Shown in pieces: positions 20,645 through 47,489 of a DNA stretch of 64,000 bases. The position numbers and the translations under genes were made by a program. Numbering within the stretch: the first letter of the stretch is position 1; the number at the start of each line of letters is the position of its first letter. The notes beneath the pieces were generated by a model. That model was given only the letters and a program-made list of their open reading frames with translations. It ran no database searches and was not told the DNA's origin. The stretch is from Thermobifida fusca NBRC 14071 = JCM 3263 (GTDB lineage Bacteria; Actinomycetota; Actinomycetes; Streptosporangiales; Streptosporangiaceae). The stretch is taken from the NCBI RefSeq assembly GCF_001592045.1, contig NZ_BCWB01000005.1, positions 1 through 64,000 on the forward strand, in the 5' to 3' direction.

Positions 20645-20751
20645 CCGTGCTCCAGAGTGCCTATCCCACACGGTCCTTGGTGCCTGAGAGGTTGCTGGGG
20701 AGGGTTGCCCCGTCGGCGCTCCGCGGCGCGGAGTCTCTCCCGTGTGGTGTC
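20645..20751 (-). promoter_or_regulatory. glycine riboswitch (single aptamer)
   Basis: Read on the minus strand, the leader of gcvP shows the conserved glycine aptamer blocks in order: CGGGAGAGACTCC, CGCCGACGGGGCAA, ACCTCTCAGGCACCAAGGAC and GGCACTCTGGAG. One aptamer is present. No full second copy follows, only a GACAGAGGGGGAG remnant that may form the ghost-aptamer helix seen in single-aptamer forms. A -10-like TAGCAT at 20801-20806 would start the transcript near 20794. About 80 bases separate the aptamer from the gcvP start. Confidence 0.92.
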
Positions 20752-20853
20752 AACGGCGCGTGTCGGCGGCCGGGTGTGTCCGGTCCACCGTGTCGTTCTC
20801 ATGCTACCGGCCCCGGGCCCCCTGCCCCGGGAGCACCGCGGTGCACGGGTCGA

Positions 20854-41931: not shown

Positions 41932-43401
41932 TTATGCGGTCTCGTATTTTTCGAGGAAGGTGTAGACGTCGGTCTCGTCGACGCCGGGGAATTGGCCGGT
42001 GGGCAGGGCGGCCAGGACGTGGGAGTGGGCGCGGGCCGACGGCCAGACGTTGCCTTCCCAACGGGAGGCGAGCTCCGAGGGGGGCCGCACGCAGCATTCC
42101 CCGACCGGGCACTCGGATTTGGTGCGGTTGGTGGTCTCCCGGCCGCGGAACCACCGCGATTCCTTGTAGGGCACGCCCAGGGTGATGGCGAAGTTGCGTT
42201 CCCGGCTGGGGTCGACATGGGCCACACACCAGTGGGTGCCGTTGGGTTTGTCGGTGTACTGGTAGTAGATCGAATAGCGGTCGGGGGAGGCGAAGACTTG
42301 GCGGCCCGCCCAGTAGCGGCACAGGCGCTGGCCTTCGATGGCCCCGGTGTCGTCGGTGGGGAAGATCAGCCCGTCGTTTTGGTAGGCCTTGTAGATGATG
42401 CCGGTCTCGTCGTTGCGGATGAAGTGGCAGACGAGGTCGAGGTGGCGGGTGGCCAGATTGGTGAACCGGTGGGCGGCCATCTCGTAGGAGACGGCGTAGA
42501 CGTCGCGGAGGTCTTCGACGGACAGGTCGCGTTGCCGTTTGGCCTCGGTGAGGAACGGGACGGCCGTGAATTCGGGGATGAGGACCGCGGCGGCGAAGTA
42601 GTTCGCTTCCACGCGTTGGCGGAGGAAGTCGGCGAAGTCGCGGGGCGGGGTGTGGCCGAGGACGAAGTGGCCGAGGGTCTGCAGCAGGATGGTGCGCGGC
42701 GTGTGCATGCCCAGCGATTCCCGCTTGAGGTAGATGCGGCGGTTGCGGGTGTCGGTGACTGAGCGCACCGAGCGGGGCAGGTCGGGGACGTAGCGCAGGG
42801 TGAATCCGTGGTGGGCGACGATGGCGAGGATCATGCCCTGGGAGAGTGCCCCGCCTTGGTAGCCGACGGCTTCGAGGGTTTCCCGCGCGGCTTTTTCGAT
42901 CTCGGGGAAGTAGTTGTCGCGCTCGCTCATGAGGCGGCGGAGTTCCGCGTTGGCGCGGCGGGCTTCCTCGTTCGTGGTGGTGGGTTTGGCGGCGCGCCGC
43001 TTGAGTTCCTCGTAGAGGGTGACGATGTGTTCGAGGACGTCGTTGGGGACGCGCTTGCCGACTTTGAGGTGGGGCAGGTTGAGGGACTGGTAGAGGGGGT
43101 CCCGCTGGGCTTCTTCGAGGGCGATCTCTAGTTGGGCGCGGCGGCTGGGGGGCTGGCGGGAGAGGAGCTCCTCCACAGAGACGTCGAGGGCTTTGGCGAG
43201 CGCGGTGAGCAGGGAGAGCTTGGGTTCCCGCTTGCCGTTTTCCAGCAGGGAGAGCTGGGACGGGGCGCGTCCTACGCGTTCTCCCAGTTCAGCGAGGGTC
43301 ATGTTGCGGGCGCGGCGGAGGTGGCGCAGCCGCTGGCCAAAGGTGACGAGATCTAGGTCACTTGGCAAAGTCGGTATTTCTTCAGTCCCAAAGTACGGCA
43401 T
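41932..43401 (-). CDS. ramB: RamB-like regulator of acetate/glyoxylate metabolism
   Basis: The 489 residues have an XRE-type helix-turn-helix (about 20-78: FGQRLRHLRRARNMTLAELG, APSQLSLLENGKREPKLSLL), a central domain related to ImmA/IrrE peptidases, and a C-terminal DUF2083-like domain with Cys in KSECPVGECC. This is the RamB/ScfR family of short-chain acyl regulators. In the peptidase-like part the usual HExxH reads QTLGH, so no protease activity is expected. It is divergent from aceA, as in mycobacteria (Rv0465c / icl) and is probably the regulator of that gene. The ATG at 43401 has no ribosome site. Confidence 0.88.
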   Translation of the reverse strand: MPYFGTEEIPTLPSDLDLVTFGQRLRHLRRARNMTLAELGERVGRAPSQLSLLENGKREPKLSLLTALAKALDVSVEELLSRQPPSRRAQLEIALEEAQRDPLYQSLNLPHLKVGKRVPNDVLEHIVTLYEELKRRAAKPTTTNEEARRANAELRRLMSERDNYFPEIEKAARETLEAVGYQGGALSQGMILAIVAHHGFTLRYVPDLPRSVRSVTDTRNRRIYLKRESLGMHTPRTILLQTLGHFVLGHTPPRDFADFLRQRVEANYFAAAVLIPEFTAVPFLTEAKRQRDLSVEDLRDVYAVSYEMAAHRFTNLATRHLDLVCHFIRNDETGIIYKAYQNDGLIFPTDDTGAIEGQRLCRYWAGRQVFASPDRYSIYYQYTDKPNGTHWCVAHVDPSRERNFAITLGVPYKESRWFRGRETTNRTKSECPVGECCVRPPSELASRWEGNVWPSARAHSHVLAALPTGQFPGVDETDVYTFLEKYETA

Positions 43402-43461
43402 GCGTTCATGCTAGAGAAAAAATCGCAAATCTTCACCCGAATCCCGCTCGAAAAACCGTGG

Positions 43462-43473
43462 AAGTTTGCAAAG
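43462..43473. promoter_or_regulatory. RamB-like binding site between ramB and aceA
   Basis: AAGTTTGCAAAG contains the TTTGCAAA core reported for RamB sites of Corynebacterium. A related A-rich stretch with CGCAAAT lies at 43415-43430, close to the ramB start, so autoregulation is possible. Confidence 0.55.
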
Positions 43474-43584
43474 AATGGTGATCACCGGCGGGGAACGAAC
43501 CGCACACCGCACGTTTGACCTGGTGCGGGGGCTCTCCAGCCGGTGGACTTACCAGGGGATCAGACTCGTTAAGGCGGGAAGACC

Positions 43585-44874
43585 ATGAGCATCACCGGTC
43601 GTCAGCAGGAAGCCAGCGCGGCTCTCCAAAAGGAGTGGGAGACCAACCCGCGCTGGAAGGGCGTCAAGCGGACGTACTCCGCTGAGGATGTGATCCGGCT
43701 GCGCGGCTCGGTCACCGAGGAGCACACGCTGGCCCGTTTGGGAGCAGAACGCCTGTGGGAGCTGCTCCACACTGAGGACTACATCAACGCCCTCGGTGCG
43801 CTCACCGGTAACCAGGCTGTCCAGCAGGTCCGCGCCGGCCTGAAGGCCATCTACCTCTCCGGATGGCAGGTCGCAGCCGACGCCAACCTGTCCGGGCACA
43901 CCTACCCCGACCAGAGCCTCTACCCGGCCAACTCGGTTCCGCAGGTGGTGCGGCGGATCAACAACGCGCTGCTGCGCGCAGACCAGATCTCCTGGTCGGA
44001 GGGTGACGAGGACGCCCCGTACTGGCTGGCGCCGATCGTCGCCGACGCGGAGGCCGGATTCGGCGGTGTCCTCAACGCCTACGAGCTGATGAAGGCCATG
44101 ATCGCCGCGGGTGCGGCTGGCGTGCACTGGGAAGACCAGCTCGCCTCCGAGAAGAAGTGCGGCCACCTGGGCGGCAAGGTCCTCATCCCGACCGGCCAGC
44201 ACATCAAGACCCTCAACGCGGCGCGGCTGGCTGCCGACGTGGCCGGGGTGCCTTCGCTGATCATTGCGCGGACCGACGCGCAGGCTGCCACCCTGATCAC
44301 GAGCGACATCGACGAGCGCGACCGGCCTTTCATCACCGGCGAACGCACTCCGGAGGGCTTCTACCGGGTCCGCAACGGCCTGGAAGCGTGCATCGCCCGC
44401 GGCCTGGCGTACGCTCCCTACGCCGACCTGCTGTGGATGGAGACCTCCACGCCGGACCTGGAGGTGGCTCGCCAGTTCGCCGAAGCGATCAAGGACAAGT
44501 ACCCCGACCAGTTGCTGGCCTACAACTGCTCGCCGTCGTTCAACTGGAAGCGTCACCTCGACGACGCGACCATCGCCAAGTTCCAGCGCGAGCTGGGCCA
44601 CATGGGCTACAAGTTCCAGTTCATCACCCTGGCGGGCTTCCACTCGCTCAACTACTCGATGTTCAACCTGGCCAAGGGGTACGCGGCTCGGGGCATGAGC
44701 GCCTACGTGGAGCTGCAGGAGGCGGAGTTCGCTGCCGAGGCCGACGGCTACACCGCGACCCGGCACCAGCGCGAGGTCGGCACCGGCTACTTCGACCTGA
44801 TCAGCACCACGATCTCGCCGGACGCTTCCACGACGGCTCTGACCGGATCCACCGAAGAGGAGCAGTTCAACTAA
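43585..44874 (+). CDS. aceA: isocitrate lyase
   Basis: Isocitrate lyase cleaves isocitrate to glyoxylate and succinate for growth on acetate or fatty acids. The 429 residues match the short bacterial/mycobacterial Icl1 type. Signatures are [32 protein letters not shown], the active-site loop [11 protein letters not shown] with the catalytic Cys at about 192, [10 protein letters not shown], and [11 protein letters not shown]. The ATG follows GGCGGGAAGACC. Malate synthase is not in the window. It is controlled probably by the divergent RamB-like gene. Three 145-bp structured repeats follow the stop. Confidence 0.95.
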
Positions 44875-44950
44875 CACCCCCTATCCCCCTCTGGGTGCAT
44901 CGGGTGGCCTCCTCCCCCACCCGATGCATCCCCCTCGACCTTTCTCCCCC

Positions 44951-45383
44951 GCAGAAGACCGGTGGTCAGCGGCTCACTGACATCCCGGTCTTCCCCGGCG
45001 TCCGTCCCGCCCCCGCTTTCGTGGCTGGGGCGCGGGTGGGACGGACGTCCACCCGCCGGTCTCGCGGCTTCCGTGTCACCCGCGAGACCGGCCCGGCAGA
45101 AGACCGGTGGTCAGCGGCTCACTGACATCCCGGTCTTCCCCGGCGTCCGTCCCGCCCCCGCTTTCGTGGCTGGGGCGCGGGTGGGACGGACGCCCTCCCG
45201 CCGGTCTCGCGGTTCCCGTGTCACCCGCGAGACCGGCCCGGCAGAAGACCGGTGGTCAGCGGCTCACTGACATCCCGGTCTTCCCCGGCGTCCGTCCCGC
45301 CCCCGCTTTCGTGGCTGGGGCGCGGGTGGGACGGACGTCCACCCGCCGGTCTCGCGGTTCCCGTGTCACCCGCGAGACCGGCC
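44951..45383. repeat. three tandem 145-bp repeats, each with three hairpins
   Basis: Units begin at 44951, 45096 and 45241 (GCAGAAGACCGGTGGTCAGC) and differ at only a few positions. Within each: GAAGACCGG / CCGGTCTTC; CGTCCGTCCC / GGGACGGACG; and CCGGTCTCGCGG / CCGCGAGACCGG (12 bp). The third unit ends in a T-tract, so its last stem is an intrinsic terminator of aceA; the first two lack that tract. All reading frames stay open across the array, but this is a composition effect. Confidence 0.9.
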
Positions 45384-45391
45384 TCCTTTTT
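45345..45391 (+). terminator. terminator formed by the last repeat unit
   Basis: A 13-bp perfect stem (45345-45357 with 45370-45382), 12-base loop, then CTCCTTTTT. It should end aceA transcripts that pass through the repeats. Confidence 0.8.
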
Positions 45392-45436
45392 CTGCCGGTG
45401 GGCGGGTGGTGTCGGGACACTGGCAGAATTTCGACC

Positions 45437-46255
45437 ATGGCCGAACCGACGCTGGACCCGGCTGGCAGTGGTGCTGCTGGTCGGACTTCTCCTGGTGTGC
45501 TGACCCGCCGGATGCTCGGGGTGGAGGTCTGGTGTGTGTTAGCGCTGTCGTTGGGTGCGTCGGCTGTGGCCGCGACGATTTCTTTTGTGGGTGCGCTGAC
45601 TGCGCCTGAAGCGCTGTCGGAGCAGACGGCGAGCCTGGTGACGTCAGCGGCGGATGCGGAGCGTCCGTGGCTGGACTTGTCGTGGCAGGCCTACCGGCTG
45701 CTGTTCGCGTTCGCTCCGGTGGCGTTGGTGGTCTACCTGCTGCACCGGTCGGGGGATTCTGCGCGGACGATCGGTTTTGATCTGCGCCGTCCCGGTTTCG
45801 ACGCGGGGTGGGGGGTGCTGCTGGCCGCGGGGATCGGCTTGGGCGGTCTGGTGGTCTACCTGGTGTCGGTGCAGTGGGGGATCAATCGTCCTATCGCGCC
45901 GAGTGCGTTGCACGGGCATTGGTGGCAGCACGCGGTCCTGGTGTTGCAAGCGGTGAAGAACGGCGTGCTGGAAGAGGTTGTGGTGGTCGGCTATCTGCTG
46001 CTGCGGTTGGAGCAGTTGGGCTGGTCGCCGGTGCGGGCGGTGGCGGCGTCGTCGGGGCTGCGTGCGCTCTACCACCTCTACCAGGGGGTGGGCATGTTTG
46101 TCGGCAACCTGGTGATGGGGGTGGTGTTCTGCTGGTTCTACCGCCGGTACGGGCGGGTGATGCCGCTGGTGGTGGCACATTCGGTGATCGACATTGTGGC
46201 GTTTGTGGGGTCGGTGTATGTCATCGGCCGGGTGGGCTGGCTGCCGGGGGCGTGA
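45437..46255 (+). CDS. CPBP-family intramembrane metalloprotease
   Basis: The 272 residues have about eight membrane spans. The CPBP (Rce1-like) motifs are present in order: the Glu-Glu pair in KNGVLEEVVVVGYLLLRLEQ, Arg and His in SSGLRALYHLYQGVGM, and His/Asp in VVAHSVIDIVAF. Such proteases may act on prenylated proteins in eukaryotes; in bacteria they are linked to bacteriocin immunity or to unknown targets. The ATG at 45437 has no ribosome site; CAGAAT eight bases upstream suggests a leaderless transcript. A much longer in-frame opening runs through the repeats and is rejected. It converges with the MFS gene. Confidence 0.85.
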   Translation: MAEPTLDPAGSGAAGRTSPGVLTRRMLGVEVWCVLALSLGASAVAATISFVGALTAPEALSEQTASLVTSAADAERPWLDLSWQAYRLLFAFAPVALVVYLLHRSGDSARTIGFDLRRPGFDAGWGVLLAAGIGLGGLVVYLVSVQWGINRPIAPSALHGHWWQHAVLVLQAVKNGVLEEVVVVGYLLLRLEQLGWSPVRAVAASSGLRALYHLYQGVGMFVGNLVMGVVFCWFYRRYGRVMPLVVAHSVIDIVAFVGSVYVIGRVGWLPGA

Positions 46256-46274
46256 GCCGGCCGGGGGAGGCCGG

Positions 46275-47489
46275 TCAGGGGGCGACTGGGCTGGGCACGA
46301 CGGCGTCTTCGATGTGGCGGGGCCGGCTGAGCAGGATGCCGCAGCCGCCGTGGGCGAAGGTGAGGGCGACGAGCAGGCCAATGGACAGCCGCCAGTCTCC
46401 GCTGAGGTCGCGGAGGAGGCCGAAGAGGAACGGCCCGGTTCCGGCGAGCAGGTAGCCGACGCCTTGGGTGGCGGCGGAGAGGGCTGCGGTGCCGTGAGGG
46501 CTGCGGGCGCGGAGCCCGAAGAAGGTGAGGGCGAGGGGGAAGGAGGACATGCCGATGCCGATGAGGGTGGCCCACAGCCAGGCGCCGGTGACGGGAGCGG
46601 TGAGGAGTCCGGCAAAGCCGACCAGGTAGCAGGTGACGAAGAGGGCGATGAGGAGGACGGGGTTGCGCATGCGGGCGACGACGGCGGGGACGGCGAGTGA
46701 GGTGGGGATCGCGAGCGCGGTCAGGTAGGAGAGGACGAGTCCGGCGTGCGGGGCGGGCATGCCGTGGTCGCGGAGGAAGTGGGCGAACCAGCCGAACATG
46801 ATGTAGGCGATGGCGGACTGGGTCGCGAAGAACAGGGTGCTTTGCCAGCCGAGGGCAGTGGTGAGGACAGTGCGGATGCTGATCGGCTGGTCGCCGGGGT
46901 GGCGTCGGGGTTCGTTACGCAAGGCCAGTGCCCAGGGGATGGTGGCGACTAAGCCGAGCAGGGCGTAGCTGGCGAGTGCGGGCCGCCAGTTGCCGTGGAA
47001 GGCGGTGGCGAGGGGGACGGTGGCGGCAGCGGCGAGGGTGGTGCCGAGGGCCATAGCGGTGGTGTAGGCGGCGGTGAGCAGGCCTACGCGGTGGGGGAAG
47101 TGCTGTTTGACGAGGGTGGGGAGGAGGACGTTGCCGACGGCGCCGCCGGCGAGGGCGAGGGTGCTGAGGGCGAGGAACAGCCACGGGTCGGTGACGAGGG
47201 CGCGGCTGGCGAGGCCGAGGGTGAGTGCGGCGAGGGCGGCGAGGAGGACGTGGTGGTCGCCCCAGCGGCGCTGCAGGGCGGGGGTGAGGGCGCCGAAGCC
47301 GGCGAAGCAGAGGACGGGCAGGGTGGTGAGCAGCCCGGTGGTGACCGGGGTCAGGTGCAGGTCGGTGGTGATTTCGGTGAGCAGCGGGCCGATGCTGGTG
47401 ATGGCGGTGCGCAGGTTGAGGGCGGCGAGGACGATTCCTGCGGCCAGGTGCCAGCGGGCGCGGCGGGTCGGCGTCGGGTGTGGTGCCAC
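46275..47489 (-). CDS. MFS transporter, CynX/NimT family
   Basis: This is a 404-residue protein with 12 predicted membrane spans. The opening VLAALNLRTAITSIGPLLTE is typical of the cyanate/nitroimidazole (CynX/NimT) branch of the major facilitator superfamily. Central spans include NVLLPTLVKQHFPHRVGLLT and the second half SFPLALTFFGLRARSPHGTA. The substrate is not predictable. The GTG at 47489 follows AGGGAA. It is divergent from a FadR-type regulator gene, with palindromes between, so the regulator likely controls it. Confidence 0.87.
   Translation of the reverse strand: MAPHPTPTRRARWHLAAGIVLAALNLRTAITSIGPLLTEITTDLHLTPVTTGLLTTLPVLCFAGFGALTPALQRRWGDHHVLLAALAALTLGLASRALVTDPWLFLALSTLALAGGAVGNVLLPTLVKQHFPHRVGLLTAAYTTAMALGTTLAAAATVPLATAFHGNWRPALASYALLGLVATIPWALALRNEPRRHPGDQPISIRTVLTTALGWQSTLFFATQSAIAYIMFGWFAHFLRDHGMPAPHAGLVLSYLTALAIPTSLAVPAVVARMRNPVLLIALFVTCYLVGFAGLLTAPVTGAWLWATLIGIGMSSFPLALTFFGLRARSPHGTAALSAATQGVGYLLAGTGPFLFGLLRDLSGDWRLSIGLLVALTFAHGGCGILLSRPRHIEDAVVPSPVAP

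Follow-up and report, generated by a model that had tools for sequence, protein, structure and literature searches.

The gene for isocitrate lyase, aceA, is followed in the actinobacterium Thermobifida fusca by a tandem array of hairpin-rich units, and this arrangement raises the question of what such a sequence does at the 3′ end of a metabolic gene. The locus lies in a 64,000-nucleotide stretch at the start of a contig of strain NBRC 14071, hereafter called the window. On comparative sequence evidence, the unit represents a genuine family of structured RNAs that has no counterpart in the Rfam copy searched and is locally triplicated in the window. It is attached to a key enzyme for growth on acetate and fatty acids. 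The following sections consider its structure, its distribution and the functions that it may have.

An array of structured units behind aceA

The three near-identical 145-bp units noted 3′ of aceA in a preliminary description of this DNA are real. Tandem Repeats Finder places the array at 44947-45383, with a period of 145, 3.0 copies, 97% matches and zero indels. Pairwise, the three units are 97-99% alike and they mismatch at four alignment columns only; by inspection, these are one position of the second hairpin that pairs as U or C, one linker position and two positions in the variable part of the third loop. The unit was found at a single site (3 matches) of the 3.64-Mb draft genome, which comprises 82 contigs. 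Reading frames cross the array, yet a coding repeat was rejected, because 145 is not divisible by 3 and stem lengths vary. A plasmid or phage origin was rejected as well, with zero matches in plasmid and phage collections. The features of the locus are given in Table 1, in which the three hairpins of a unit are called H1, H2 and H3.

Table 1. Features of the aceA locus and a riboswitch elsewhere in the window (R1, covariance model of the unit)
Feature	Position	Strand	Evidence or detail
Glycine riboswitch	20661-20752	minus	Rfam, 67.8 bits
aceA, encoding isocitrate lyase (429 aa); parent gene of the 3′ element	43585-44874	+	Pfam PF00463 ICL, E 1.2e-104; ORF
Separate hairpin between the aceA stop and unit 1	44893-44931	+	Predicted fold of 44870-45400
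Unit 1	44954-45092	+	H1 44954-44993, H2 44997-45049, H3 45055-45092; R1 118.0 bits (unit 1 is itself among the 35 building units of R1)
H1 apical loop CGGCUCA, conserved	44970-44976	+	
CGUGGCU, centre of the conserved H2 loop UUUCGUGGCUGGG	45020-45026	+	
H3 loop, four variable bases followed by CGUGUCAC	45068-45079	+	
Unit 2	45099-45237	+	R1 115.7 bits
Unit 3	45244-45382	+	R1 119.7 bits
Five-T tract behind the H3 of unit 3, at which the full transcript may terminate	45387-45391	+	
CPBP/Rce1-like membrane protease gene, neighbour outside the element	45437-46255	+	Pfam PF02517, E 1.6e-17

Unit 3 with its flanks (162 nt) is predicted to fold into three hairpins at -99.8 kcal/mol, with a z value of -6.3 against 200 shuffles, and the predicted fold of 44870-45400 reaches a z value of -14. 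Three stems of 9, 10 and 12 bp per unit had been proposed; the number of hairpins holds, while the stem lengths need correction. H1 has a 9-bp lower stem, a 5-bp upper stem and a 7-base loop, H2 has 16 and 6 bp flanking a C.C mismatch, and H3 has 13 bp. When the whole array is folded, adjacent units pair through their H2 arms in the minimum-energy structure, and the centroid retains H1 and H3 only, so the three-hairpin fold is claimed for single units. The three U-G pairs adjoining the H2 loop are invariant and may open, which would give the 13-base loop UUUCGUGGCUGGG; the occurrence of GUUCCGUGGCUGGC on a different stem in a relative (locus L239) agrees with such an open loop. Kissing of the H2 and H3 loops through GUGGC and GUCAC, found by hand, is possible. 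Both of these putative partners are invariant, and some relatives that have lost the H3 loop retain H2. In the three Thermobifida relatives, too, a hairpin-like sequence was recognized by eye in the position of the one between the aceA stop and unit 1.

Distribution and linkage to aceA

A BLAST search with unit 3 gave matches in 40 of 150 genomes of the family, at 60 bits or more in 30 of them; short weak matches (<50 bits) elsewhere in several family genomes were taken as chance. In the first set of loci, which includes partly overlapping loci and own-genome repeats, aceA adjoins the unit in 40 out of 40. R1, a covariance model constructed on 35 units, matched 65 of 200 genomes of the order (59 at 90 bits or more), in one place or as neighbouring copies. 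In the class it matched 17 of 296 genomes, 16 of them from the unit's own family; searches of more than 40 genomes score 10-15 candidates per genome, and weak homologues may be missed. The exact 19-base core of H2 occurs in 49 stretches of an 84,980-species collection and is adjoined by aceA in 47. These 47 come from Nocardiopsis, Thermobifida, Streptomonospora, Marinactinospora, Marinitenerispora, Allosalinactinospora, Actinorugispora and Allonocardiopsis, and include an unclassified Nocardiopsaceae strain and a record labelled Glycomyces fuscus. The exact 19-mer in a Sphingomonas and a Loktanella MAG is without aceA in the examined loci, and aceA is absent from the examined loci of four one-mismatch 19-mers outside the family.

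A further six genomes of the family give weak R1 matches of 34-50 bits, each located at the aceA stop; the H2 core is kept in L085, L087 and L088 only and is lost in L086, L089 and L090. A 28-bit match in genome G338 is not located behind aceA and, judged by eye, resembles a cobalamin riboswitch. Matches to the opposite strand inside elements (24-41 bits) were taken as mirror images of the hairpins. No full-length copy of the unit was found away from aceA in these searches. The AceA protein of the genus relative G002 is 95.6% identical to that of the window. In Allosalinactinospora lopnorensis (L140), aceA matches as two pieces in different frames, possibly because of a sequencing error.

Absence of the unit from all relatives had been named, together with negative RNA data, as the sign of a chance duplication. 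One to three units were found directly behind aceA in relatives, and chance duplication is rejected. The proposal of selection on the aceA 3′ end is upheld by this linkage (40/40 loci, 47/49 stretches), together with compensatory stem changes and near-invariant loops. The alternative proposal, of a link to the downstream protease gene, finds no support: its distance is very variable in relatives, where the gene lies more than 3 kb off in one case or outside the examined stretch, and it is therefore not regarded as part of the element.

Covariation, conserved loops and strand

Thirty-five units derived from BLAST hits were located with motifs allowing one or two mismatches, leaving out L040, which contains Ns. 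In their alignment 96.4% of cells are paired, as against 40-47% when partners are slid by 1-3 columns. Double-changed cells, which here and below are in many cases shared among related species and count sequences rather than independent events, number 47 versus 11.9 in shuffles; 'further pair types' show no excess (21 versus 20.6), and the H2 helix has zero double changes in this alignment. In a larger set of 64 distinct units, positions were matched by how far they lie from the loop; because the H3 register was chosen unit by unit to maximize pairing, the percentage paired is inflated. Dropped from it were two copies of the L040 sequence, the diverged Allonocardiopsis, one unit with CGUGUCAU and units near locus ends. 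Double changes then appear in 12 of the 13 H3 pairs, with pairs 5-12 affected in 30-38 units each, and at H2 pairs 14-16 (33, 20 and 13, respectively). H2 pairs 1-6 scarcely vary; pairing is frequently absent at H2 positions 7 and 10.

The loops of H1 (CGGCUCA), H2 (UUUCGUGGCUGGG) and H3 (CGUGUCAC) are invariant or nearly so in the 35 BLAST-derived units; in the 64 units, which were gathered by exact core motifs, loop invariance is partly by construction. Mean conservation in ten-column steps over the 64 units is 0.64-1.0 across the element; roughly ten columns beyond H3 it falls to 0.30-0.51. Conservation behind the aceA stop that exceeds what a terminator would show, which serves as a criterion for sRNAs derived from 3′ UTRs, is found at this locus. 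In some distant relatives the H2 core is kept on different stems.

Among the stem positions counted in the 64 units, G-U combinations number 44 and A-C combinations 4; the count omits H2 pairs 1-3, which are always U-G, and H2 positions 7 and 10, which are often mismatched and hold 10 A-C/C-A and 3 G-U/U-G cells. This strong preponderance of G-U over A-C argues for an RNA read on the aceA strand, and the element is most likely read in that sense. An action at the DNA level, through protein-binding palindromes or as a mobile repeat, is disfavoured to the point of being scarcely credible. Hairpins are inverted repeats in DNA too, and tandem copies are present, but the element occupies one genomic site without dispersal, and the presence of G-U pairs with few A-C fits a single-stranded RNA and not DNA.

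The first hairpin and the aceA stop codon

The final codons of aceA and its stop (..E-D-Q-F-S-A-A-H-stop) form the 5′ arm of H1 in most species and pair there with the 3′ UTR. Two features of codon usage bear on this arrangement. The codon TCA accounts for 50 of 1,443 serine codons in 55 distinct aceA genes, and 48 of these 50 lie at the H1 site. Pairing at the third position of the GAA/GAG codon, or at the equivalent non-coding base, was scored in the 62 of 64 units that have a GARGACC start; it is predicted as A-U in 39 and as G-C in 21, with no pairing in 2. This pattern indicates a synonymous constraint at the aceA end, in which GAA/GAG changes are matched by the partner base in the UTR and the rare TCA is fixed.

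H1 also exists outside the coding sequence, with its CGGCUCA loop kept, in Thermobifida, in Actinorugispora (L015/L145) and in the second units of Nocardiopsis potens (G075) and of G103, which belongs to the same genus group. The upper stem of these non-coding hairpins is unchanged in Thermobifida and changed on both sides in Actinorugispora and in the G075 and G103 second units. Retention of CGGCUCA in a non-coding H1 indicates that the loop is maintained for the RNA, and not for the protein alone.

Copy number and duplication history

Counting copies in relatives, as had been recommended, gave three units in the window, two in G001, two in G002 and one in G003; two units are also present in N. 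potens and G103. Since these genus relatives carry two, two and one unit and the window genome is an 82-contig draft, the count of three could be an assembly artefact of an otherwise real and conserved element. This explanation is very improbable, as the three copies mutually differ at four columns and the single-contig relative G001 itself has two.

Units of Thermobifida are 97-99% alike within a genome and 83-92% alike between genomes, which implies either separate duplications or concerted evolution. In the case of G075 and G103, first units are 97% and second units 91% alike between the genomes, as against 88% for units 1 and 2 within a genome. Like-numbered units are therefore closer than units of the same genome, and this duplication is probably older than the split of the two.

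Termination and stability

A T-tract had been noted after the last unit only, and this is correct for the window, where five T follow unit 3 and no such tract follows units 1 and 2. Of 58 loci, which include two that are not measurable (L148, L162), 33 have at most two consecutive T (0-2) behind their last H3. The tract behind unit 3 is not listed by a terminator scan limited to loops of 3-8 bases. No sigma-70-like promoter was detected in 43300-46300 by a scan that covers actinobacterial promoters poorly.

The view that the array is an amplified terminator and nothing else leaves the conserved loops unexplained, and a T-tract after H3 is not general. A broader version, in which the element is a plain structure for stability or termination at the 3′ end, with GC-rich hairpins that halt the polymerase and block exonucleases and that were copied by unequal crossing-over, is unlikely. 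It would account for the very stable predicted folds, for the T-tract after the last unit of the window and for the greater likeness of Thermobifida copies within a genome (97-99%) than between genomes (83-92%). Neither a roadblock nor a terminator, however, needs loops that are near-invariant across 35 units, nor an H2 core kept on different stems in some distant relatives, and T-tracts are often missing.

Other aceA 3′ ends, the aceA leader and the search for partners

Sixty aceA 3′ ends of the family, chosen mainly from genomes without strong matches, were surveyed; L258 could not be read to the stop. One of them, L201, is a core member of the element. A hairpin resembling H2 was found in 5 of the 59 others, by eye in L203, L204 and L239 and also by pattern in L207 and L246; by eye, all five are without the H3 loop.

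Two further motifs were encountered behind aceA in this survey. A sequence resembling CAGGGCAUGGGACGGUUCCC (at most 5 mismatches) lies in a hairpin in 9 of the 60 3′ ends (L209, L212, L215, L217, L218, L223, L224, L227 and L236). With at most 1 mismatch it occurs in 7 of 197 genomes of the class: G096 and G060 have it at the aceA 3′ end by coordinates, and the other five, including the family member G113, represent no excess over the reversed control (5 genomes). The other motif, of the GCAGGUCAC...GAUCUGACGG type and mostly within a GGCCCCGCC-type hairpin, is present in 11 of the 60 (L206, L210, L211, L213, L214, L219, L220, L221, L233, L240 and L244). Exact matches to it number 4 in the 197 class genomes and 0 in the control, with G098 behind aceA and three outside the family.

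Upstream, the aceA leader (window 43510-43584) is strongly conserved as CUCCAGCCGG...CCAGGGGA...AAGGCGGG in Thermobifida-type genera and reads CUCGACCGGUG..GAACACCUUGGGGAC..AAGGCGGG in a large Nocardiopsis set. The sequence GTTTGCAAAG at window 43464-43473, upstream of aceA, is presumably akin to a RamB-type operator, and a divergent ORF (41932-43401) has, by eye, a helix-turn-helix-like N-terminus.

These data bear on a cis-acting role as the main rival explanation, in which a protein or the aceA leader would bind the loops and thereby set the stability, translation or termination of aceA mRNA. Linkage to aceA, the inclusion of the stop codon in H1 in most species and the presence of other conserved hairpin motifs behind aceA in some further genera of the family all speak for it, and it explains equally well that no full-length copy was found away from aceA. 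In addition, Thermobifida-type leaders contain CUCCAGCC, an 8-base match, found by eye, that could pair with GGCUGGGG of the H2 loop. This complementarity is, however, missing in the CUCGACCGG-type leaders of Nocardiopsis, although the H2 loop is unchanged there, and general pairing between the 3′ element and the leader is rejected on this ground. A 9-base match between the Thermobifida Shine-Dalgarno region and the 3′ arm of H1, seen by eye, is not general. Moreover, in Thermobifida and Actinorugispora the units lie behind the stop with an H1 that lacks it, and a simple cis switch needs no tandem multiplication. A cis-acting element is thus a credible possibility that falls short of even chances.

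A search for partners in trans was made in four Thermobifida genomes with the 10-mer complementary to the H2 loop. It gave 12 sites outside the units, versus 19 for the reversed control. Two groups of sites are orthologous, one in 3 of the 4 genomes within a long open frame, the other in 2 of the 4, where a short ORF starts with ATG 14-15 bases downstream. Two such groups are insufficient to name an antisense target of the H2 loop.

Proposed function

The leading reading, whose chances we consider to be even, is that of a stable regulatory RNA derived from the aceA 3′ end in Nocardiopsaceae and acting in trans through its loops. It corresponds to the array of small RNAs raised as one possibility in the preliminary description. 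Action in trans finds indirect support in the independence from the stop codon in several lineages, the tandem multiplication and the precedent of other sRNAs derived from 3′ ends. Against this reading weigh the search with the H2-loop 10-mer, which gave fewer sites than its control, the negative promoter scan of 43300-46300, the short T runs (0-2) in 33 of 58 loci and the predicted pairing between adjacent units. The element would be transcribed together with aceA and end at or after H3, and a stable fragment of about 145 nt, or an array of two or three units, would survive. Its loops would then bind an RNA or protein partner, coupling expression of the glyoxylate shunt to another process. 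In species whose H1 contains the stop codon, closure of H1 would have to wait for the terminating ribosome to leave. With two or three units on each transcript, as in Thermobifida, more of the RNA would be made per aceA message. Near-invariant loops suggest a specific partner, possibly an RNA-binding protein; in Streptomyces an RNA-binding protein related to sRNAs is called 'currently elusive' in an excerpt of PMC9438474.

In a bolder form, which is rather unlikely, the element would be an aceA-born multi-hairpin sponge or effector RNA of a new actinobacterial class, with release or folding gated by translation and strength tuned by copy number. In such gating, H1 would close only while the aceA stop codon is free of ribosomes. 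If this were true, the aceA 3′ end, where different genera of the wider family have placed different conserved hairpins, would be a site at which regulatory RNAs linked to the glyoxylate shunt have arisen repeatedly. Hairpins that contain the stop codon and differences in copy number are natural variants that make function testable.

Comparison with known RNAs

In the whole window, the glycine riboswitch of Table 1 alone reaches the gathering threshold of Rfam release 15. For 44850-45450 at E<=5 the best match is mir-4433, with 18.9 bits where 77 are needed, and a scan of 20 other aceA 3′ ends gave no family at threshold. A literature search for a small or structured RNA at the isocitrate lyase 3′ end in Nocardiopsis, Thermobifida, Streptomyces or actinobacteria, with subscription journals mostly outside its range, returned none. 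Small-RNA literature on T. fusca, in excerpts of the matches listed, does not name the aceA 3′ site.

Repeats of the REP/BIME type are GC-rich intergenic hairpins with many dispersed copies. The aceA element likewise consists of GC-rich hairpins after a gene, but it occupies one genomic site and is conserved at one locus across genera. Sponge RNAs of the CsrB/RsmZ type are hairpin arrays with repeated GGA-bearing loops. They share with the aceA element an array of hairpins with conserved loops, in which copy number could matter; unlike them, it has three different loops whose conserved parts are without GGA, and it is linked to aceA.

The iron-responsive element (IRE) has a CAGUGN-type hexaloop and a bulged C five pairs below. 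The aceA element resembles it in being formed by UTR hairpins in an actinobacterium, and aconitase is a metabolic neighbour of isocitrate lyase. Excerpts of PMC3912134 report IRE-like hairpins bound by apo-aconitase for AcnA of Streptomyces viridochromogenes, with CAGUG, CAGCG, GAGAG or GGGAG loops in Streptomyces. By eye, the loops CGGCUCA, CGUGGCU and NNNNCGUGUCAC differ from the IRE types given there, and an iron-responsive element is rejected.

The closest comparison is with sRNAs derived from 3′ ends, a known kind that, in the excerpted parts of the sources, includes s-SodF of sodF in Streptomyces coelicolor (PMC9438474) and SdhX, from the 3′ UTR of the sdhCDAB-sucABCD operon in enterobacteria (PMC6393394). 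Unlike these, the aceA element is heavily structured, with conserved loops in place of a single-stranded seed; it also has tandem copies and an H1 that includes the stop codon in most species. Like s-SodF and SdhX, it is conserved past the stop of a metabolic gene, most likely on the mRNA strand, and has a hairpin at its end.
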